Assembly: GCF_000027145.1 (NCBI RefSeq)
Contig: NC_013891.1
Location: 2,480,001-2,544,000 of the forward strand
Reading direction: 5' to 3'
DNA length: 64,000 nt
Origin: Listeria seeligeri serovar 1/2b str. SLCC3954
GTDB taxonomy: Bacteria > Bacillota > Bacilli > Lactobacillales > Listeriaceae
Each line of letters begins with the position of its first letter. The first letter of the stretch is position 1. The notes beneath the pieces were generated by a model. The model was not told where the DNA came from. It was given only the letters and a program-made list of their open reading frames with translations, and searched no databases. A program made the translations under genes and the position numbers. Below are positions 5,079 through 35,489 of this stretch, in pieces.

Positions 5079-5642
5079 TTAATTTGTTTCAATTAAACCA
5101 TATTTTCCATCTTTACGTGAATACACAATATTGGTGCCATTAGTTTCGGCATCTGTATAGACGTAAAAACTATGTCCTAGTAAGTTCATTTGTAATACAG
5201 CTTCTTCACTATCCATTGGTTTTAATGAAAATTGTTTTGTTCTTACAATTTCAAGATCAAAATCTCCTTCATTTTCTTCTGGTGGTGTACTGCCATTTAC
5301 ATCAGAATAAGCGAAATAATCTCTTTCCGCACCTTTATCACGGAATTTACGATTTACTTTTGTTTTATGTTTGCGAATTTGTCTTTCTAGTTTATCTACA
5401 ATTAAATCAATGCTTGCATATAAATCTCCACTTGTTTCTTCTGCACGTAGCACAAGATTTGGAAGAGGGATAGTCACTTCAACTTTTGCATTTTTATCAG
5501 AATATACTTTTAAATTAACATGTACGTTAGCGTCTGGTGTTTCTGTAAAATAACGTTCTAATTTATCAATCTTCTTTTCGACGTAATCTCTAATTGGTTC
5601 TGTTACTTCAATATTTTCACCACGAATGTTGTACTTAAGCAT
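5079..5642 (-). CDS. hpf: long-form ribosome hibernation promoting factor
   Basis: 187 residues starting MLKYNIRG; the ATG at 5642 is chosen because AAAGGAGG stands 8 bases before it, whereas the 27 bases upstream in frame lack a site. The N-terminal S30AE/YfiA domain (residues ~1-95) binds the 30S decoding centre; the C-terminal ~60 residues are the dimerisation domain that lets long HPF form 100S ribosome dimers by itself. Homologue of B. subtilis YvyD. Flanked by its own promoter elements and terminator. In Listeria this gene is reported as stress-induced; see the promoter entry. Confidence 0.96.
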   Translation of the reverse strand: MLKYNIRGENIEVTEPIRDYVEKKIDKLERYFTETPDANVHVNLKVYSDKNAKVEVTIPLPNLVLRAEETSGDLYASIDLIVDKLERQIRKHKTKVNRKFRDKGAERDYFAYSDVNGSTPPEENEGDFDLEIVRTKQFSLKPMDSEEAVLQMNLLGHSFYVYTDAETNGTNIVYSRKDGKYGLIETN

Positions 5643-5694
5643 AGTAATTCCTCCTTTGAAATAAAACAAATAACGATAAAGAAGAGTATTCTTC

Positions 5695-5731
5695 TTACCC
5701 TTAGTCTACGTGAAAATGATGCGTTTTGCAA
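5695..5731 (-). promoter_or_regulatory. hpf promoter region, sigma-A and possible sigma-B elements
   Basis: Minus strand: TTGCAA (5731-5726), 17-bp spacer, TAGACT (5708-5703), a plausible vegetative promoter. Immediately downstream GGGTAA (5700-5695) resembles a sigma-B -10 (GGGTAT), but the expected GTTT -35 at 13-15 bp is only a TTTT. The sigma-B reading is therefore tentative. Confidence 0.45.
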
Positions 5732-5835
5732 ACATTTGCACAAAGAGCTTAGAAGCGTCATTCCACTTATCTTTATTTAGTATTTTATTCCACTAATCAT
5801 ACTCTCGCAAACCTCTTTTTACAGATAAAAATTAA

Positions 5836-6489
5836 CTATCTAAATAGTGTCACTGAAGTCACTTTTTTAATTCCTGATTCTTTTAATTTTTGCGCCGCTA
5901 AATTAAGCGTGCTTCCGGTGGTATAGATGTCATCGAATAAAATAAGCTCTGTTTGACAGCATTCTTCTGTTTGGAGATAAAAAACTTGTTCTGCTTCTAA
6001 ACGTTCTTTTTTTGTCTTCTTAGATTGTTTTTCAGCATGCCTTCTTGCTAAAACTTCTTCGTACGGGATTCCCGCCAGTTTGAGCATCCCTGCCGTTTGG
6101 TTAAAACCACGCTCTAGTTTCCTCTCCTTACTAACTGGGATTGGTACAACGATAGTATCATTCGTACTTAAAAGCTTTTTAAGTTCTTTTTGGAAAATTG
6201 CTCCTATGACATAATCTCCTTGAAATTTATATTTCTTCATATATTCTTTTGCAAAGTCATTGTAGCGATATAATGACTTATTCTTATCTAGAAAACGATT
6301 TTTATGTTCGCAGTCTGCGCAAACTGATAAAACTGATTCTTTACTACATATTTCGCAGAGTGGCCCCTCCAATGCTTCAAAACTAGCCAAACATTGACTA
6401 CAACACATCCTCTCTTTATTAAATAGCCATTTCAAATCCCAGCCAACCTCTACTTTAAGTGGCGTCAAACATAGTAAACAGTTAGTCAT
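5836..6489 (-). CDS. comFC: late competence protein ComFC, phosphoribosyltransferase-like
   Basis: 217 residues. The N-terminal third carries CxxC pairs (CLLC, CCSQC, CEIC, CADC) that would bind zinc. The C-terminal half is a PRTase fold with the PRPP-loop motif LFDDIYTTGST near residues 178-188. ComFC works with the ComFA ATPase in uptake of transforming DNA. Its ATG overlaps the end of comFA by 8 bp, implying translational coupling. Full length and intact. Confidence 0.95.
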   Translation of the reverse strand: MTNCLLCLTPLKVEVGWDLKWLFNKERMCCSQCLASFEALEGPLCEICSKESVLSVCADCEHKNRFLDKNKSLYRYNDFAKEYMKKYKFQGDYVIGAIFQKELKKLLSTNDTIVVPIPVSKERKLERGFNQTAGMLKLAGIPYEEVLARRHAEKQSKKTKKERLEAEQVFYLQTEECCQTELILFDDIYTTGSTLNLAAQKLKESGIKKVTSVTLFR

Positions 6490-7801
6490 CTAACATTCCC
6501 TCAGCTAAGCCTAATTCATTCATTTTTTTAATATGACTGATAGCCCGATTCATTTCTGCCGTTTTTCCATAATGAAAAAAGCAAACATCTCCTGTGGGGT
6601 GTGTCATCTTTCTTCCTGCACGTCCAGCAATTTGAACTAATGCAGCTTCAGTAAAAATCTTCTCCTCGCTACCGAAGACAGCAACTTGAACATCAGTAAA
6701 TGTGACGCCCCGTTCTAAAATAGTTGTAGTAAGTAGCAAATCAATTTTCCGTTCTCGTAACCACTCTACTTTCTCTTTCCGTGCTCCATCAGCAGAATGT
6801 ACTGTCACTGGCTTTTCAAAACCATATGTGGTTAAAACTTCCGCAAAGTTATTCATAGCTTCGATCTCTGGAAAGAAAATTAGTGCAGGTTGCTTTTTTA
6901 ATTTTATATTGTTAATCCAAGTAATAAGCTTGGGTGATATTTTACCCTGAGTAAGTTTTTTCTTCCACGGACCAATCCAACACAATCTGGGTACCGGAAG
7001 CTTTCTCCGATGATAGCGAGCTGGAATTTTCACAAAATGTCGTTTTCCATTAGCGCACTCTTGTTGCCACTTCTTCTCGGGAGTTGCTGTAATAACAATA
7101 GTCGCTCCCTCTTTTGTGCGTGCTTTCTCTACTGCATACTCTAAAAAAGGATCTTTAGCATATGGAAACGCATCTACTTCATCAATAAAAATCACTTGAA
7201 AAGCTTCGTAAAAACGGATTAGCTGATGCGTCGTAGCTAGTACAAATTGCTCGCCTTGATATTTGTCTTCTGAATCCCCATAGAGACAAACTATTTCTAG
7301 AGTGGGAAAAACAGCTTTTAAACGAGGGTGTAATTCTAAGCAAACATCCACCCTTGGAGAAGCTAAACAAACTCTATAGCCTTTTCTCAAGGCCCAATTC
7401 ATTCCTTCAAACATCATTTCTGTTTTCCCAGAACCAGCAACTGCCCATAATAGCATATTGCGACTCTGTTCTAAGCTATCGACAACTGCATTAGATGCTT
7501 TCTGTTGACCTTTTGATAAAGTGCCATCCCAGTTAAGTAGGGCTGATTTTGTTTCTGCAAGAGCACTCGTCTTTCGGTAATATAAACTTTGGCAACTATT
7601 CACACGTCCCATTACAATACAATTCCGGCAATAAGCACAAGTCTCCTTCCCACAAAAAGCACAATCCATCTCTCCAAATAAAACCGGATTTGTATTTCCA
7701 CATCGAAAACACTTATTTTCTGAAATGGCAGCTATTTCTTCTAGACCACTTATATTTTCAACTTCGCTTGCTTGGTATAATCTTCCTGGAAAAACGTCCA
7801 T
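6482..7801 (-). CDS. comFA: late competence DNA-uptake ATPase ComFA
   Basis: DEAD-like helicase/translocase thought to pull single-stranded DNA into the cytoplasm during transformation. An N-terminal zinc module (CFRCGN, CAFC, CAYCRNC) precedes Walker A (AVAGSGKTE), the DEVDAFP Walker B box, TATPEK motif III and a C-terminal helicase domain ending with QIAGRAGRK. I use ATG at 7801 (439 residues) because AGAGAGG is 8 bases upstream; an in-frame GTG at 7810 overlaps that site. Two ComK-like AT boxes lie about 85-120 bp upstream. No frameshift or stop is seen, so the competence ATPase looks functional. Confidence 0.95.
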   Translation of the reverse strand: MDVFPGRLYQASEVENISGLEEIAAISENKCFRCGNTNPVLFGEMDCAFCGKETCAYCRNCIVMGRVNSCQSLYYRKTSALAETKSALLNWDGTLSKGQQKASNAVVDSLEQSRNMLLWAVAGSGKTEMMFEGMNWALRKGYRVCLASPRVDVCLELHPRLKAVFPTLEIVCLYGDSEDKYQGEQFVLATTHQLIRFYEAFQVIFIDEVDAFPYAKDPFLEYAVEKARTKEGATIVITATPEKKWQQECANGKRHFVKIPARYHRRKLPVPRLCWIGPWKKKLTQGKISPKLITWINNIKLKKQPALIFFPEIEAMNNFAEVLTTYGFEKPVTVHSADGARKEKVEWLRERKIDLLLTTTILERGVTFTDVQVAVFGSEEKIFTEAALVQIAGRAGRKMTHPTGDVCFFHYGKTAEMNRAISHIKKMNELGLAEGMLDD

Positions 7802-7885
7802 TACCTTCACCTCTCTTTAGTTATACACGTTTTAAGATTTCTTTGCAGAAGCGAATCCCTCATTTTCGGAGGCAATACTAACTAC

Positions 7886-7922
7886 AAAATCACGTTTTTA
7901 CTAAAGAGAAAAACACCCTTTT
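7886..7922 (-). promoter_or_regulatory. ComK-type double AT box upstream of comFA
   Basis: Two elements of the form AAAA-N5-TTTT lie side by side: AAAATCACGTTTT (7886-7898) and AAAACACCCTTTT (7910-7922), 11 bp apart. B. subtilis ComK boxes have this half-site shape, usually with 8, 18 or 31 bp between halves, so the spacing is slightly off. No clear -10 is visible downstream. Confidence 0.6.
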
Positions 7923-7965
7923 CGCTGTGCTTAAACTACTGAAAAAACAATTTTAGGTTGAATGC

Positions 7966-8001
7966 AAAAAAATCTCCAGCTTTTATAGCTGGAGATTTTT
8001 T
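7966..8001 (-). terminator. degU-degV terminator
   Basis: AAAATCTCCAGC pairs with GCTGGAGATTTT around a 7-base loop, with T/A runs on both sides. It overlaps the degV stop codon and closes the degU-degV transcript. Confidence 0.93.
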
Positions 8002-8851
8002 ATTTAATTGACCAAGTTAGTCCGAGGGCGCCTTCACCAAGGTGTGTACCGATAACTGGACCAAAATAACTTAATTCAAAAACCACTTCTGGAAACTTAG
8101 CTTCTAAATGCTTTCTCCATGTTTCCCCTTTTTCTGGATCATTTCCATGAATAACAAAAGCTTTCTCTGCGGATTTGTTTTGGACAGCAGTTTCTAGAAT
8201 ATCTTCAATTCGTTTAAGTGCTTTTTTTTGTGTCCTTACTTTCTCAAATAAAACAATCTGCTTATCGTCAAAGTGAAGAATTGGCTTGATTTGTAGCAAA
8301 CTACCTACTAGTGCTTGGGCTCCGTTCAAACGCCCACCTCGTTGTAAGTTATTCAAGTCATCCACCATGAAATAAGCATCTTGAGCTTGTTTTATTTTGT
8401 CTAATTCCTTAATAATGTCCTCTACCGATTCATTTTCCATAGCCATTTTAGCAGCTTTAACAGCAAGCATTCCCTGCGCCATGCAAGAAAGTTCCGAATC
8501 ATAAGAAATGACATTCAAGCCTTCGATTCCATCTCCCGCCGTAGCTGCATTTTGGAACGTCCCACTAATACCACTTGATAAATGAATTGTAATGACCGTG
8601 TCATATCCTTGTGATTTCAACGTTTCAAACAATTGAATGAATTCTCCTGGAGCGGGTTGAGAAGACGTTGGAAAAGTCTCAGCTATCCTTACCTTTTCAT
8701 AAAATTCTGCTGTAGACAAGTCTTCACCCTCGCGATAAGATTTTCCATCAATTATTACAGAAAGTGGCACGACATTAATTCTTAGATGGTTTTTCACATC
8801 ATCTGGTAAATAAGCTGTACTGTCAGTCACCACCGCTATATTTCCGTTCAT
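8000..8851 (-). CDS. degV: DegV family fatty-acid-binding protein
   Basis: 283 residues. DegV-family proteins bind a fatty acid in a deep pocket, and FakB members present it to the FakA kinase. Family motifs are visible: VTDSTAYLP near the N-terminus, TSQPAPGEF at about 62-70, SGISGTFQNA around 95-104, and RGGRLNGAQALVGSLLQIKP near 170-190. ATG start with a GGGGGG-containing ribosome site. It follows degU by 21 bp in one transcript. Whether it feeds a fatty acid kinase or does something else cannot be read from the sequence. Confidence 0.9.
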   Translation of the reverse strand: MNGNIAVVTDSTAYLPDDVKNHLRINVVPLSVIIDGKSYREGEDLSTAEFYEKVRIAETFPTSSQPAPGEFIQLFETLKSQGYDTVITIHLSSGISGTFQNAATAGDGIEGLNVISYDSELSCMAQGMLAVKAAKMAMENESVEDIIKELDKIKQAQDAYFMVDDLNNLQRGGRLNGAQALVGSLLQIKPILHFDDKQIVLFEKVRTQKKALKRIEDILETAVQNKSAEKAFVIHGNDPEKGETWRKHLEAKFPEVVFELSYFGPVIGTHLGEGALGLTWSIK

Positions 8852-8872
8852 ATTGTCCCCCCGAGATTTTCT

Positions 8873-9559
8873 TTAGCGAATATATACCCAACCATGTTTA
8901 ATTGCCGTTACCACTGCTTGAGTTCTATCGTTCACTTTCATTTTTTGTAAAATGCTACTTACATGATTTTTTACTGTTTTTTCACTAATGAAAAGTGTTT
9001 CACCAATTCCTCGGTTACTTTTTCCATCTGTAAGAAGTTGCAATACTTCACATTCTCGATGCGTTAAAATGTGTAATGGCATTTTCACTTCAGGTTGTTG
9101 ATAACCATATACACCTTGTGAAGTATTGGTACTTGCTAAATGTCGATATTCACGGATTAGTTTGATTGCAACACGTGGGTGGATATACGCACCACCATTA
9201 TCTACTATTTTGACCGCTTCCACAAGTTCATGGGCGTCCATTTCTTTTAATAAATAACCTACTGCTCCGGCTCTAAGCGCTTCTGTTACATATTCATCCG
9301 TATCGTGGATTGTTAAAACGATTACTTTAATGCTTGGAAATTGACGTACTAACATTTCTGTCGCATCTAATCCATTAACAGTAGGCATATTAATATCCAT
9401 TAAAACAATATCTGGTTTGTATTCGCGAACTTTTGCTACAATATTCTTGCCATTTTCAGCCTCCGCTACGACCTCAAAAGAATCTTCCAATTCTAAAATC
9501 CGTTTGATACCTTCGCGAAACAACTGATGATCGTCTACAACCATGATTTTGAGTGCCAT
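8873..9559 (-). CDS. degU: response regulator DegU (orphan, no DegS neighbour)
   Basis: 228-residue NarL/FixJ-type regulator. Receiver domain: acidic pocket VVDDH at residues 7-11, phospho-acceptor Asp55 in VLMDINMP, and the switch lysine in GYLLKEMDA. The C-terminal LuxR helix-turn-helix spans about 160-225 ([12 protein letters not shown] ... [16 protein letters not shown]). In B. subtilis degS precedes degU; here the 382 bp upstream hold no kinase and the neighbour is the divergent yigZ, matching the known Listeria situation in which DegU lacks DegS. In Listeria DegU controls flagellar motility. RBS AAGGAGGAG. Confidence 0.97.
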
Positions 9560-9941
9560 AATGACTACTCCTCCTTCATTTATCTATTTTCATCAAGCTA
9601 ATTGCAATCGAAAACATCAACCTTTTTTAGTAGCAAAACCGCTTAACCTTATAATCCCTGCCACAAATTGGCACATAAACTTTTCTCTTTTAAGTACTAT
9701 TTACTAAAACTAATCTATTAAAAGACTAAATGTCACCTTCATTATACGGCATATTCCAAAAAAATTACTTCTATATGCCTATGAAGTGAGACTAAAAACC
9801 AGTCTAAAGTAATAGTAGTTTTTATTATAACATGAATTTGCCACCACTTCACCCGCTGAACTCAGAAAAACATCTATACAATCGCTTTACTTTCAGATAG
9901 AATAAAAGCAAGCTAATCGCATCAACTTATGGAGGTTTCCT
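9560..9941. promoter_or_regulatory. divergent degU / yigZ intergenic region
   Basis: No gene here. For degU (minus) a perfect TATAAT is at 9746-9741 but its -35 is poor, suggesting activator help or an alternative promoter. For yigZ (plus) TATACA and TAGAAT lie 17 bp apart at about 9873-9902. A small hairpin AGACT/AGTCT is centred near 9796; it lacks a U-run and is not a terminator. Confidence 0.45.
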
Positions 9942-10577
9942 ATGTTGGATCAATATTTAACCATTCATAGTAATGGGACTCATGAAATTATTGTTGAAAA
10001 ATCTCGCTTTATTTGTCATCTTATGCGAGTTACAACAGAATCTGAAGCACAATCGTTTATTCAACAAATAAAAAAAGAACATCGAGATGCCTCGCACAAT
10101 TGTTCTGCATATATAATAGGAGAAAATAACCAATATCAAAAAGCACATGATGACGGCGAGCCAAGCGGTACTGCTGGTATTCCAATGTTAGAAGTTTTAA
10201 AAAAGAAGGGCTTGAAAAATGTTGCAGTCGTTGTTACTCGCTATTTTGGCGGCACTAAATTAGGTGCTGGCGGGCTTGTACGTGCTTATGGAAATGCTGT
10301 AAGTGAAGCAATTCAAACTATCGGTATTGTAGAATGCAAGCTAGCCACTATTATTCAATGCGAATTCACTTATCCACTTCTTGGAAAAATCGAAAATGCT
10401 TTAGAACAAAGAAACTATCAAATCGACCAAAAAGAATTCACTGAAAAAGTACTTCTTCACATTTTTGTCAATAATGATGATTTAACAAACTTTATCAATT
10501 GGATAACCGAAATTTCTAATGGAAACATTGAAATTACAGAAGGTCCACAAAAATATAGAGAAAAGGATGTCACTTAG
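9942..10577 (+). CDS. yigZ: YigZ/IMPACT family protein
   Basis: 211 residues of the UPF0029/IMPACT family. The N-terminal domain (~1-125) has the family signatures DDGEPSGTAGIPML and VVVTRYFGGTKLGAGGLVRAYG; the C-terminal ~80 residues are a DUF1949-type ferredoxin-like domain. Bacterial members are suspected to act on translation or RNA but no reaction is established. RBS GGAGG, ATG start. It is followed 1 bp later by an acetyltransferase gene and then lytR, all on the plus strand. Confidence 0.9.
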   Translation: MLDQYLTIHSNGTHEIIVEKSRFICHLMRVTTESEAQSFIQQIKKEHRDASHNCSAYIIGENNQYQKAHDDGEPSGTAGIPMLEVLKKKGLKNVAVVVTRYFGGTKLGAGGLVRAYGNAVSEAIQTIGIVECKLATIIQCEFTYPLLGKIENALEQRNYQIDQKEFTEKVLLHIFVNNDDLTNFINWITEISNGNIEITEGPQKYREKDVT

Positions 10578-31833: not shown

Positions 31834-32240
31834 TATAAAAAATGTTCGGAAATTGCACTTTTTAACTCATAATAAGTAATTTCATATTGCTCGATTGACC
31901 CGCCGTATGGATCAGGAATATCAGAATTATCGTCTGTTACTAGCTTGATTTTAGAACTGCTATTTGGAAAGTGCATTTGTAGCTCTTGTACCTGCGCTTT
32001 TGTCATCGCATAAATTTCATTCGCCCAGTCGATATCTGCTTGATCCAATTTCTTAGCTTGGTGGTCCGTTTCTAAATCCATTTGCAAAAGAATCTGCTTC
32101 GATTTTTCTGATATAGCGTCTCCAGTAACAGCACAAGTTCCAGCTGAACGAACGGCTATATCCGGTCGTAAATCTTTTAAAATTTTTTCTGCTAGCGGGC
32201 TTCTACATGTATTTCCGGTACAAACAAATAAAACGTTCAT
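31833..32240 (-). CDS. ywlE: low-molecular-weight protein phosphatase YwlE (protein-arginine phosphatase type)
   Basis: 135 residues. P-loop CTGNTCRS with nucleophile Cys7 and Arg13; Thr11 in the loop is the residue known to give YwlE its preference for phosphoarginine over phosphotyrosine. General acid Asp in IPDPYGGS near the C-terminus. It would counteract the McsB arginine kinase of the Clp quality-control system. Slightly shorter than B. subtilis YwlE. Overlaps ywlC by 4 bp. Confidence 0.9.
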   Translation of the reverse strand: MNVLFVCTGNTCRSPLAEKILKDLRPDIAVRSAGTCAVTGDAISEKSKQILLQMDLETDHQAKKLDQADIDWANEIYAMTKAQVQELQMHFPNSSSKIKLVTDDNSDIPDPYGGSIEQYEITYYELKSAISEHFL

Positions 32241-33274
32241 TCGCTGATCCTCCTATTTCCTGCTGCTTTTTCTAACCGATTCATTACCGCAGCGCCTAAT
32301 TCTGTTTCTGGATATACTTCCGCAAAGATTATATCAACTTCTGCGTGGTCGAATGCCCGAAGTCCTTTGTAAAGCTGGTTAGCGATTTCTTCCATTGATT
32401 CAATGCTACCTGTTGTTTGGGTGACGGCGTTAGTTGTTAGACCGTCTAGTAGTTCTTTAGTTGCTAGTATGCCTAGTTTTTTATGAGCAGCTTCTACTTT
32501 ATTTATTTCTTTTTGCCAGAATGCTTTAGAACCTTCAACAAGGTAAACTGGGGCTTTTGGGGCGTAGTGTGTGTATTTCATTCCAGGTGCCTTAGGTTTT
32601 TCCGTTTCTTTTGTGTCGTTATTTGCTAACTCAACTGAACCAATGACTTGTTCAATTTGTTCTTTAGTAATACCACCTGGGCGCAGTATTACGGGTATTT
32701 CGGTAGAACAGTCAATCACAGTGGATTCTAAGCCGACTCCAGTTGCTCCCCCATCAATGATTCCAGCAACTTTGTCATCTAAATCTTCTATTACATGGCT
32801 TGCACTTGTTGGGCTAGGCTTGCCAGACCGGTTGGCGCTTGGAGCGGCGACTGGAATACCAGCTTCTTTAATTAACGCCAAACTCACAGGATGTTCTGGC
32901 ATGCGGACGCCAACTGTGGATAAACCAGCAGACACATTGCTCGCTAAACTATCTTTCTTTAAAGGTAAAATGACTGTTAATGGGCCTGGCCAAAATTTTT
33001 CCATCAACTTTATCGCTTTTTGTGGATAACTCGCTACAAAAGCATCCATTTGGTCACGGCTTGCAATATGAACAATAAGAGGGTTATCTGACGGGCGTCC
33101 TTTTGCTTCATAAATTTTTTGAATGGCTGCTTGATTGGTTGCATCTGCACCAAGGCCGTAGACTGTTTCTGTTGGAAAGGCCACGCATTCGCCATTTCGT
33201 AGTAGTTCTGCCGCTTGTTGATAAACAAATTTATTTGATTGTTGCTCATTTATTTTCCAATGAATGGTTTGCAT
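32237..33274 (-). CDS. ywlC: threonylcarbamoyl-AMP synthase (Sua5/YwlC)
   Basis: 345 residues: N-terminal YrdC/TsaC domain (~1-200; KxR..SxN-type motifs GRPSDNPLIVHIA, PGPLTVIL, GVRMPEHPVSLALI, AAPSANRSGKPSPT) and a C-terminal Sua5 domain beginning after the KAPGMKYTHYAP linker. Makes the threonylcarbamoyl-AMP used for the universal t6A37 tRNA modification. First gene of ywlC-ywlE. A perfect DnaA box lies inside it (33021-33029), the edge of the cluster next door. Confidence 0.95.
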   Translation of the reverse strand: MQTIHWKINEQQSNKFVYQQAAELLRNGECVAFPTETVYGLGADATNQAAIQKIYEAKGRPSDNPLIVHIASRDQMDAFVASYPQKAIKLMEKFWPGPLTVILPLKKDSLASNVSAGLSTVGVRMPEHPVSLALIKEAGIPVAAPSANRSGKPSPTSASHVIEDLDDKVAGIIDGGATGVGLESTVIDCSTEIPVILRPGGITKEQIEQVIGSVELANNDTKETEKPKAPGMKYTHYAPKAPVYLVEGSKAFWQKEINKVEAAHKKLGILATKELLDGLTTNAVTQTTGSIESMEEIANQLYKGLRAFDHAEVDIIFAEVYPETELGAAVMNRLEKAAGNRRISE

Positions 33275-33380
33275 GAATTCCTGTCCCCTTTACATAACTT
33301 CTATTATATTTTAACGTTTTCTGCCTTTTTTTTACAGCATTGTTTTTTATTTCCAGAAATTTGTTGATTTTAGACAAAAG

Positions 33381-33535
33381 TTATCCCCAAACTGTGGATA
33401 ATAACTTTGTCAATGGGGATAACTTATTGTGAATTGTGGATAATTCGTTAAGATAAGTAAAAAAGCCATTTTCTTTATTAAGATTTGATTAAAAAAATTT
33501 TTTGCACAACATTTTATCCACAGTTTTGTGGATAA
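33381..33535. promoter_or_regulatory. DnaA-box cluster between ywlC and prmC
   Basis: In the 300-bp gap (33275-33574) there are four perfect TTATCCACA boxes: 33393-33401 (-), 33435-33443 (-), 33514-33522 (+), 33527-33535 (-), and two one-mismatch TTATCCCCA boxes at 33381-33389 (+) and 33414-33422 (-). Further perfect boxes lie at 33021-33029 (in ywlC), 33628-33636 and 33648-33656 (in prmC), and a near match at 33690-33698. No replication gene or AT-rich unwinding array of an origin is adjacent, so a DnaA-titrating or regulatory cluster is more likely than oriC. Confidence 0.9.
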
Positions 33536-33543
33536 CTTAAATT

Positions 33544-33577
33544 AAAAAAAGACGCTCCTCTTGGGAAAACGCCTTTA
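33544..33577 (-). terminator. prfA-prmC terminator
   Basis: Minus strand AAAGGCG...TCC / GGA...CGTCTTT with a small internal loop, then T7. It touches the prmC stop. Confidence 0.7.
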
Positions 33578-34426
33578 TATCAGTATGTTAGAGCATGTTA
33601 CATAGCGATCTTTTGAATTTATATCTTTGTGGATAACAACCGTGGAATGTGGATAACTTTTTTGGAAAAGGTCTTTTACTTTTTCTCCTTGTGTATAACC
33701 TATCTCAACTCCCACCCAAAAAGATGGATTTAAGACATATTGTAAGTCTTCCACAAATCGTTCATAGATAGCAAGCCCGTCATTCTCAGCAAATAAAGCA
33801 AGGGCTGGTTCATTTTTCAACACATAATCGGACATTGCTGCTTTTTCGGCTTCTGAAATATACGGTGGATTTGCTAAGACCATGTCGAAGCGCTCTCCGT
33901 TTTGTTTAAACGATTCGAGCAAATCTGTTTCCACGAAGCGAACATCAGCATTTAACAATAAGGCATTTTTTTTCGCAATCGCAAGGGCAGGACTAGATAT
34001 GTCAGAAGCAGTTACCAAGACCTTAGGAAAGGCTTTTTTGAGCGCAATCGCAATTATACCACTGCCTGTACAAACATCAAGCACGGTCGGTAATGGGTTC
34101 TTTTTCAAAAAGGCTTCTGCACACGCGACTAGTTCTTCGGTTTCCGGGCGCGGAATAAGCACATCTTCCGTCACTAAAAAATCATAACCATAGAAAGGCG
34201 CTGTTTTTAAAATGTATTGAACTGGTTCACCTGACAAATATCGTTCAAAATCCGCTTGAAATTGTTTTTCGTGATTTGGCTCAAGTTCTCGGTTAATTTC
34301 CATCCAAAGCTCCGAACGAGAAAGACCCATTCGTGTTTCAAGTAAAATTTCGGCGGCGTTTTGGTCTAAACCTTTTTTGAGAAGAATCGCTTCCGCATCT
34401 TTGAGCAATTGACTAATTTGCGTCAT
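33575..34426 (-). CDS. prmC: release factor glutamine methyltransferase
   Basis: Methylates the Gln of the GGQ motif in RF1 and RF2. 283 residues: N-terminal helical RF-binding domain, then a Rossmann fold with the SAM loop [15 protein letters not shown] (~113-127) and the catalytic NPPY motif ([10 protein letters not shown], ~186). Overlaps prfA by 14 bp, and its substrate RF2 is also encoded in the window at 1.2-2.3 kb. Confidence 0.95.
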
Positions 34427-35489
34427 TTAAATGTTCCAATTTGCTTGTTTGATCTTCAAGGATAAGCGCATCAATGATTTCATCGAGTTTGCCTTCCATA
34501 ATTTGATCGAGTTTTTGAATTGTTAAGCCGATGCGGTGGTCAGTCACGCGGTTTTGCGGATAATTGTATGTCCGAATGCGTTCTGAACGGTCTCCAGTTC
34601 CAACAGCGGATTTACGGTTAGCATCGTATTCTTCTCGTGCTTCACGCTCGAATTTATCATAAACACGGGCACGCAAAACTTTCATTGCTTTGTCTTTATT
34701 TTTTAATTGCGAACGCTCATCTTGCATCGAAACAACAATCCCAGTTGGAATATGTGTCAAACGAACCGCCGACATTGTTGTATTGACACTTTGTCCGCCG
34801 GCACCAGTAGAAGCAAATGTATCTGTACGGATATCTTTGTCATGTAATTCGATTTCCACTTCTTCTGCTTCCGGTAAAATTGCTACAGTTGCAGTTGATG
34901 TGTGAATTCGGCCACCTGATTCCGTTTCTGGAACACGTTGCACACGGTGAGCTCCATTTTCATATTTCATTCGTGAAAAGGCATCGTTTCCATTCATCAT
35001 CGCGATAATTTCTTTGTAACCGCCAATTCCAGTTGGGTTAGCATCCATTATTTCTACTTTCCAACCGCGTGACTCCGCATATTTGCTATACATTCGGAAT
35101 AAATCACCTGCAAATAAAGCTGCTTCATCTCCGCCAGCTGCTCCACGAATTTCGAGGATAACGTTTTTGTCATCATTAGGATCTTTTGGAACTAGGAGTA
35201 GTTTAAGTCGTTCTTCTAATTCTGCTTTTTCTTTTTGTAGTTCCGTAAATTCTTCTTTAGCCATTTCGCGCATTTCATCGTCTAGTTTTTCGCTTAAAAG
35301 TTCTTTCGTTTCGTCAATTTGTGCGTTAACATTTTTATATTCACGGTATGCTTCAACTGTCGCTGTGATGCCTGATTGTTCTTTTGATAAGTCACGTAGT
35401 CGTTTTGGGTCTGATACAACGTCTGGATCACTTAATAGTTCATTTAATTCATCGTAACGGTCTTCCACCGCTTGTAATCGATCATACAT
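34413..35489 (-). CDS. prfA: peptide chain release factor 1
   Basis: RF1, releasing peptides at UAA/UAG. 358 residues. GGQ loop [17 protein letters not shown] (~228-244) and the RF1-type codon-recognition region [20 protein letters not shown]. No internal stop or frameshift, in contrast to prfB. ATG with AGGTG upstream; 22 bp after tdk. The symbol must not be confused with the Listeria virulence regulator PrfA, which is a CRP/FNR protein. Confidence 0.97.

Follow-up and report, generated by a model that had tools for sequence, protein, structure and literature searches.

A DnaA-box cluster at the 5′ end of ywlC

The window analysed here is a 64-kb stretch (bases 2,480,001-2,544,000) of the 2,797,636-base single-contig genome of Listeria seeligeri serovar 1/2b str. 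SLCC3954, and positions are given in window coordinates. Its minus strand carries ywlC (32237..33274), a Sua5/TsaC-family gene of tRNA t6A synthesis whose ORF matches Sua5_C (PF03481) with 140.7 bits. The upstream neighbour of ywlC is an ORF on the same strand (33575..34426), which we take to be prmC, as named in the initial annotation. The two genes are separated by 300 bp of intergenic DNA (33275-33574).

Perfect TTATCCACA DnaA boxes recur throughout this region. A pattern count located seven of them within 33021-33698, starting at 33021-, 33393-, 33435-, 33514+, 33527-, 33628- and 33648-, the same number as in the initial annotation; the one-mismatch boxes in this segment number four rather than the three first reported. 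An eighth perfect box at 32915- lies just outside the segment and brings the ywlC cluster to eight perfect boxes (32915-33656) plus four one-mismatch boxes. Four perfect and two near-perfect boxes had been assigned to 155 bp, which is correct for 33381-33535. The cluster had also been placed between ywlC and prmC. This holds for its central, intergenic boxes, but three boxes lie within ywlC (32915, 33021 and 33216) and three within the 3′ end of prmC (33628, 33648 and 33690).

The intergenic boxes are arranged around a core triad (33381..33422, minus strand) of the form TTATCCCCA-N12-TTATCCACA-N3-inverted TTATCCCCA, made up of boxes 33414-, 33393- and 33381+. A perfect box (33435..33443, minus) follows 21 bp from the 33414 box. 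An AT-rich conserved block around GTGCAAAAAAWTTTTTTAATCAAATYTTAAT (33475..33512, minus) adjoins two perfect boxes, 33514+ and 33527-, which form an outer inverted pair set 13 bp apart (33514..33535). Two more perfect boxes occupy 3′ codons of prmC (33628..33656, minus), where the one-mismatch box TTATACACA (33690..33698, minus) is also found. The boxes inside ywlC are perfect at 32915..32923 and 33021..33029 and carry one mismatch, as TTATCAACA, at 33216..33224; all three are on the minus strand.

A consensus scan for sigma-70-like promoters returned none in 33200-33800 (2.5 were expected in shuffles), and a TAAAAT-like -10 element about 50 bp before the ywlC ATG was read by eye from the alignment. 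If this element is the ywlC promoter, the cluster sits upstream of it and not over it, so that simple occlusion of the promoter is not obvious. A weak terminator-like hairpin overlaps the prmC stop codon (33548..33576, minus; one found versus 0.3 expected), and the RNA fold of this stretch is no better than that of shuffles (z -0.34). A structured RNA at the locus was set aside, with no Rfam match in 32000-35000; the single-stranded DNA fold had a z of -3.39, but inverted boxes alone produce such a value.

Box counts against chance

The initial annotation had held that chance would give almost no boxes here, and the counts agree. The 64-kb window contains 11 perfect boxes versus 0.70 expected, a number reached in 0 of 100 shuffles, and the whole genome contains 70, against 17 for a reversed control pattern. 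Groups of at least four perfect boxes per 1 kb occur at three places genome-wide, namely oriC, positions 298,069-298,478 of the genome, and ywlC. If 70 boxes are placed randomly, eight within 742 bp have a probability of about 1e-15, even after multiplication by the number of such windows. What characterizes a non-oriC DnaA-box cluster of the B. subtilis type, several consensus boxes within a few hundred base pairs and far beyond chance, is present at ywlC.

That the cluster is an accident, an artefact of composition or a by-product of codon usage can be given practically no weight. Six of the 12 boxes do sit in codons, as a codon-usage effect would have it, but the excess over expectation in both the window and the genome speaks against all three variants, as do the codon positions and control stretches described below.

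Conservation within the genus

A YwlC match was found in all 25 genomes of the genus. Over the 620 bp that surround the start of ywlC, at least four boxes occur in 25/25 of these loci versus 0/25 control stretches of equal length taken further into or past ywlC; the totals are 223 boxes (133 perfect) and nine (one perfect), respectively. This poverty of the controls again argues against chance.

Within the close group of the genus, box positions are nearly fixed. Relative to this genome, identity across 14 close genomes is 0.975 in boxes versus 0.846 in other intergenic DNA (placement p 0.0064; one genome, L050, partly masked), and across ten distant genomes 0.907 versus 0.503 (placement p 0.0002). 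The boxes at 33435, 33628, 33648 and 33690 are each identical in 14/14 close genomes, and those of the outer pair in 13/14 (33527) and 12/14 (33514), the partly masked L050 being among the 14. The AT-rich block has a mean identity of 0.976 in the 13 unmasked close genomes, where all non-box intergenic DNA has 0.866, and of 0.682 in the ten distant genomes; its core pattern occurs in 20 of 28 Listeriaceae loci.

The boxes inside ywlC behave differently from these. The 33021 box is identical in 2/14 close and 0/10 distant genomes and the 33216 box in 0/14 and 0/10, whereas a perfect box stands at the place of the 32915 box in 15/15 close genomes (L036-L050, this one included) and in 0/10 distant ones. 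The genus-wide conserved part of the cluster therefore lies within 33381-33698. The initial annotation had held that its reading would be refuted if boxes were not conserved in other Listeria species while flanking codons were. The opposite was found for the intergenic and prmC boxes; two of the three ywlC boxes (33021 and 33216) are not conserved.

Third codon positions of prmC add a further contrast. In the close genomes their identity is 1.000 inside boxes (nine positions) versus 0.590 outside (108 positions), and in the distant genomes 0.744 versus 0.400. Because these positions are more conserved inside boxes, selection acts on the DNA itself, and codon usage loses ground as an explanation for the boxes that overlap prmC.

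The 42-bp triad and its distribution in Bacilli

Comparison of the ywlC gap across Listeria and other Bacilli, which the initial annotation had suggested, revealed a shared position and a shared triad spacing. All three of the other Listeriaceae carry at least four boxes at ywlC. Among the 29 other Bacilli with the best matches to this YwlC, a sample biased to near relatives by its selection, 28 reach four boxes (197 boxes versus 11 in controls). The diverse and named samples are less biased. In a set of 30 Bacilli picked to be diverse, 11 reach four boxes, 14 reach three and 13 have none (79 versus 8). Among 11 loci that belong to the window's order but to different families, two reach four boxes and eight have none. 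No control stretch reached four boxes in the Listeriaceae, best-matching or diverse samples; some genomes are shared between samples. A scan of named genomes found at least three boxes at 16/23 Bacilli loci versus 1/23 control stretches, and at 0/57 other loci, which record titles assign to Clostridia, archaea and further groups. The corresponding totals are 116 boxes versus five in controls for Bacilli and six versus ten for the others. Named Bacilli without boxes are Paenibacillus (3/3), Virgibacillus (1/2), Kurthia (1/2) and Sporolactobacillus.

Box spacing is likewise patterned. At 82 Bacilli loci outside Listeriaceae, same-strand boxes are most often offset by 12 or 21 bp and converging boxes by 12 or 33 bp; at 28 Listeriaceae loci the usual same-strand offsets are 21 and 42 bp, and the converging ones are again 12 and 33 bp. 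These offsets are captured by an ideal triad, TTATCCACA-N12-TTATCCACA-N3-TGTGGATAA, a 42-mer with 27 fixed positions, from which the present locus departs by two mismatches. The triad is found within two mismatches at 27/28 Listeriaceae loci and within three at 30/82 other Bacilli loci, while the best triad in shuffles never had fewer than ten mismatches in Listeriaceae (84 shuffles) or eight in other Bacilli (246 shuffles). Five triads with altered spacing came down to four mismatches in Listeriaceae and six in the others, the low Listeriaceae value arising because other boxes help.

Across 299 genomes of the class, 59 hold the triad at three or fewer mismatches (67 places). A reversed control was found in 0/299, which again speaks against chance. 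Of the 59 triad-bearing genomes, 30 carry it no more than 400 bp upstream of ywlC, a count in which 16 genomes without a ywlC place in the list are scored as misses. Other triad places include gcp (G241) and rlmH (G261, and a second copy in G379).

The upstream neighbour varies. PrmC is detectable in the flank (1.5-2 kb) of all 28 Listeriaceae loci, and it is not detectable in flanks of that length at triad-bearing Bacilli loci such as L077, L081, L082, L087-L089, L092-L094 and L096-L098. The cluster thus follows ywlC. Shared placement upstream of ywlC and shared triad spacing, in Listeriaceae and the other Bacilli aligned, support an orthologous site of common origin.

Judged by its sequence, the ywlC cluster of Listeriaceae and many Bacilli is old and under selection. 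The 42-bp triad is most likely its old core, which the outer boxes extend.

A possible replication origin at ywlC

Another reading of the cluster is a cryptic or former origin. A 21-bp inverted pair, TTATCCACA-N3-TGTGGATAA, occurs both at ywlC and at oriC in several other Bacilli, and the AT-rich block at 33475-33512 adjoins the outer box pair. Of the 31 genomes, out of 73, whose matches to the pair were listed, 27 have it near ywlC by hand count. Fifteen other copies were fetched, of which 11 adjoin dnaA, three adjoin rpmH at a contig end and one adjoins rlmH. The oriC copies among them lack the triad, however, with at least four mismatches to it. The initial annotation had noted neither dnaA or dnaN nor an origin-like unwinding region nearby, and this stands: the ORF reading of the locus gave no dnaA or dnaN, and inspection by eye gave no run of DnaA-trios, in contrast to L031 near 1790-1800. 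By inspection, the ywlC locus does not show the features of oriC, a dnaA/dnaN context with DnaA-trios flanking an AT-rich unwinding element, and the true oriC lies at the chromosome start. We therefore rejected a cryptic origin at ywlC, and regard a present or past origin as a very improbable source of the cluster.

Companion clusters at rlmH and gcp

The second non-oriC group in the genome, at 298,069-298,478, comprises four perfect and 11 one-mismatch boxes between ORFs that by eye resemble htrA and rlmH. At least four boxes within 900 bp upstream of rlmH are found in 20/25 genomes of the genus. Absence of the cluster from the remaining five was considered and rejected, as a similar cluster lies about 4.7 kb further upstream of rlmH in each. 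At one such displaced locus the intervening ORFs resemble, by eye, a beta-glucosidase, a BglG-type antiterminator and a PTS permease. Beyond the genus, 24 of 30 genomes (two of them Listeriaceae) reach four boxes at rlmH, including 4/4 of family f17, which we infer to be Staphylococcaceae.

When 28 genomes were searched for a tandem of two perfect boxes, 19 gave a match. Of the loci fetched, 19 were read by eye: six are at gcp (most with ydiF), four at htrA-rlmH, one next to htrA but some 4 kb from rlmH, and eight elsewhere. Downstream of gcp, at least four boxes occur in 17/30 genomes (121 boxes versus four in a 5′ control); the cluster is absent from the 6/6 Listeriaceae examined. Where ORFs were read, the genes on either side of the gcp/ydiF cluster converge on it with their 3′ ends, and no obvious promoter is present. 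With the rlmH and ywlC clusters present and the gcp cluster absent, the genome keeps two of the three widespread non-oriC clusters.

We take B. subtilis yydA to be rlmH; a literature search found no paper that joins the two names. The yydA and gcp/ydiF clusters of B. subtilis are sites of a like kind at genes other than ywlC, and of these the rlmH cluster is also present in Listeria. In six genomes whose contig starts with dnaA (G000, G013, G017, G018, G020 and G024), ywlC lies roughly 284-376 kb to one side of oriC and rlmH or its cluster roughly 290-345 kb to the other; G015, G016 and G021 have no dnaA in their first 2.5 kb and lie outside this sample. The six share gene order, so that this is close to one observation, and no symmetry is claimed. 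The ywlC and yydA sites of B. subtilis are both placed on the same side of oriC in PMC4447404.

Proposed function

The initial annotation had pointed to a DnaA site by ywlC in B. subtilis. The site is real: Table 1 of PMC4447404 gives it as region 6, 'upstream of ywlC; downstream of ywlB', with nine boxes and an apparent Kd of 0.25 uM for ATP-DnaA in an in vitro whole-genome binding experiment. The same paper counts the ywlC region among eight high-affinity DnaA regions in B. subtilis. DnaA represses ywlC in B. subtilis (PMC4447404; PMC12112137). Because DnaA binds at and represses ywlC there, the Listeria cluster is most likely the orthologous site, and the retention of the same cluster and spacing in Listeria and in many Bacillus relatives makes it very probably a working control site. 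Our main reading, to which we would give a probability of roughly 0.75, is that the Listeria cluster is the orthologue of the B. subtilis ywlC cluster and both lowers ywlC transcription and holds DnaA away from oriC.

Several DnaA molecules would assemble on a non-origin, high-affinity platform at ywlC, with assembly proceeding from the triad outward. The bound DnaA would lower ywlC transcription and would at the same time be kept away from oriC, the platform being one of two such stores in the genome. We infer that Listeria DnaA probably binds the cluster and acts as in B. subtilis. Some results weigh against this reading: two of the three boxes in ywlC codons vary, 13 of the 30 diverse Bacilli and eight of the 11 loci from different families of the order lack boxes at ywlC, and the scan gave no sigma-70-like promoter. 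The initial annotation had called the locus conserved and DnaA-titrating or regulatory; its conservation is borne out, while titration and regulation are inseparable by sequence alone.

One alternative is that the cluster is purely a titration store that tunes initiation timing, with ywlC only a convenient address. We regard this as possible, if rather unlikely. Removal of six non-oriC clusters leads to early initiation in B. subtilis (PMC5295017; PMC13220808), and according to the review PMC5295017 this defect is partly reversed when a single cluster is reinserted at another site. The gcp/ydiF cluster, at which 17 of 30 Bacilli have at least four boxes, has no obvious promoter to regulate, and five of 25 genus genomes keep an rlmH cluster at about 4.7 kb from rlmH, both of which would suit a store. 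Against a store alone, the cluster tracks the ywlC 5′ end while the upstream neighbour changes, and the repression of ywlC by DnaA was measured in B. subtilis (PMC12112137). The review PMC5295017 also doubts a significant role of the clusters in initiation, where the effect is strong only with all six removed, and tenfold DnaA overproduction caused no over-initiation in B. subtilis (PMC13220808).

The converse alternative, that DnaA merely represses ywlC so that t6A supply follows replication status and titration is incidental, we consider unlikely. In its favour, many families keep the cluster at the ywlC 5′ end, and PywlC-lacZ expression falls in a B. subtilis strain with about twofold more DnaA (PMC12112137). 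Yet conserved boxes extend to 424 bp upstream of the ATG and into prmC, which is more than a repressor needs, and a like cluster stands at gcp without an obvious promoter. The initiation phenotype of the six-cluster deletion, as given in PMC5295017, also counts against transcription as the sole role. Returning to the main reading, we think that the ywlC site may well serve both repression and DnaA buffering.

Wider significance

Clusters recur at ywlC, gcp/tsaD and rlmH in Bacilli. Like ywlC, gcp/tsaD encodes an enzyme of tRNA t6A synthesis. The rlmH product modifies 23S rRNA. A further B. subtilis DnaA cluster lies upstream of trmE, itself a tRNA-modification gene. It is conceivable, though we would call it improbable and speculative, that three old non-oriC DnaA platforms beside RNA-modification genes form a wired link between initiator and decoding instead of scattered DnaA sinks. 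If so, the DnaA level would set translation capacity, which would feed back on initiation. In B. subtilis, cells that lack YwlC show a stringent-response signature (PMC4634966). That clusters recur at these three genes makes a connection of replication initiation with RNA modification a question open to testing.

In the literature searched, Gram-positive DnaA buffering outside oriC so far rests on B. subtilis. The ywlC site, conserved in Listeriaceae and many other Bacilli and constrained in its spacing, indicates that clusters of this kind are ancient and selected for, and the triad offers a specific module to mutate. With two clusters versus six, Listeria may make it simpler to tell DnaA buffering apart from ywlC control. 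Among the matches listed, no title or abstract opening dealt with the Listeria cluster, the triad or DnaA boxes at rlmH/orfX, a comparison outside which Ishikawa 2007, Okumura 2012 and Goranov 2005 fall. The matches listed likewise held no report of DNA-level selection or of the recurrence at ywlC, gcp and rlmH; priority is not claimed.

Relation to known DnaA-box clusters

Bacilli oriC, which is bipartite, uses the same boxes, and the 21-bp inverted pair is at oriC in 14 of the 15 fetched second copies. It differs from the ywlC cluster in its dnaA/dnaN context and in the absence of the triad from the fetched copies. E. coli datA and DARS1/2 are likewise non-coding, non-oriC DnaA-box clusters that alter DnaA availability or activity, and datA works with IHF, as described in the review PMC5295017; no homology with the Listeria cluster is claimed. 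B. subtilis is stated to be without IHF, datA and DARS in PMC13220808.

The closest counterpart is the ywlC-ywlB cluster of B. subtilis, a stable DnaA-binding site with published occupancy data and one of the six non-oriC clusters there. Like the Listeria cluster, it packs many boxes into about 300 bp at this end of ywlC and has no origin nearby. The upstream neighbour differs, being ywlB in B. subtilis and prmC in Listeria, and the Listeria boxes extend into prmC codons. The triad is common to the Listeria cluster and other Bacilli in the alignment, from which B. subtilis 168 is absent. The kind of site is thus already known from B. subtilis, and the Listeria site is a new member of it.

The AT-rich block at ywlC and triad-like boxes elsewhere

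An AT-rich block (window 33475-33512) adjoins the outer inverted pair of perfect DnaA boxes at ywlC and is kept in much of the Listeriaceae. The block holds no DnaA box and gave no promoter match; it is possibly a bend or a site for another protein.

Nearly identical 42-mers resembling the ywlC triad (box-N12-box-N3-inverted box) occur at one place per genome in G055, G063, G092, G098, G106, G112, G126 and G027, all of one genus (g6, family f4) with genomes of ∼2 Mb. In another genome, G357, perfect boxes stand in tight tandem at other genes (L331 1501-1533 and L320 1501-1521), and those in L331 adjoin ORFs that by eye resemble an amino-acid transporter.

Companion clusters at gcp and rlmH

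The 3′ end of gcp (tsaD) carries a DnaA-box cluster in 17 of 30 Bacilli (loci L333-L340, L342, L345, L346, L348-L350, L352, L357 and L359); this cluster is missing in all six Listeriaceae examined.

The source genome has a second DnaA cluster (L033 5978-6525, genome ∼297,977-298,524), flanked by htrA-like and rlmH-like ORFs. Its two box blocks, at 5989/6062/6070/6083 and 6390/6463/6471/6484, are offset by 401 bp, as if they were products of duplication. In five genomes of the genus (L191-L195), ∼4.7 kb (locus positions ∼5,300 to 10,000) separates rlmH from its cluster; in L191, the one of the five examined, this DNA looks like a bgl/PTS operon. DnaA boxes also lie upstream of rlmH in L185, L187, L188 and L190, from a family that looks like Staphylococcaceae, in which SCC elements use rlmH (orfX) as their attachment site.
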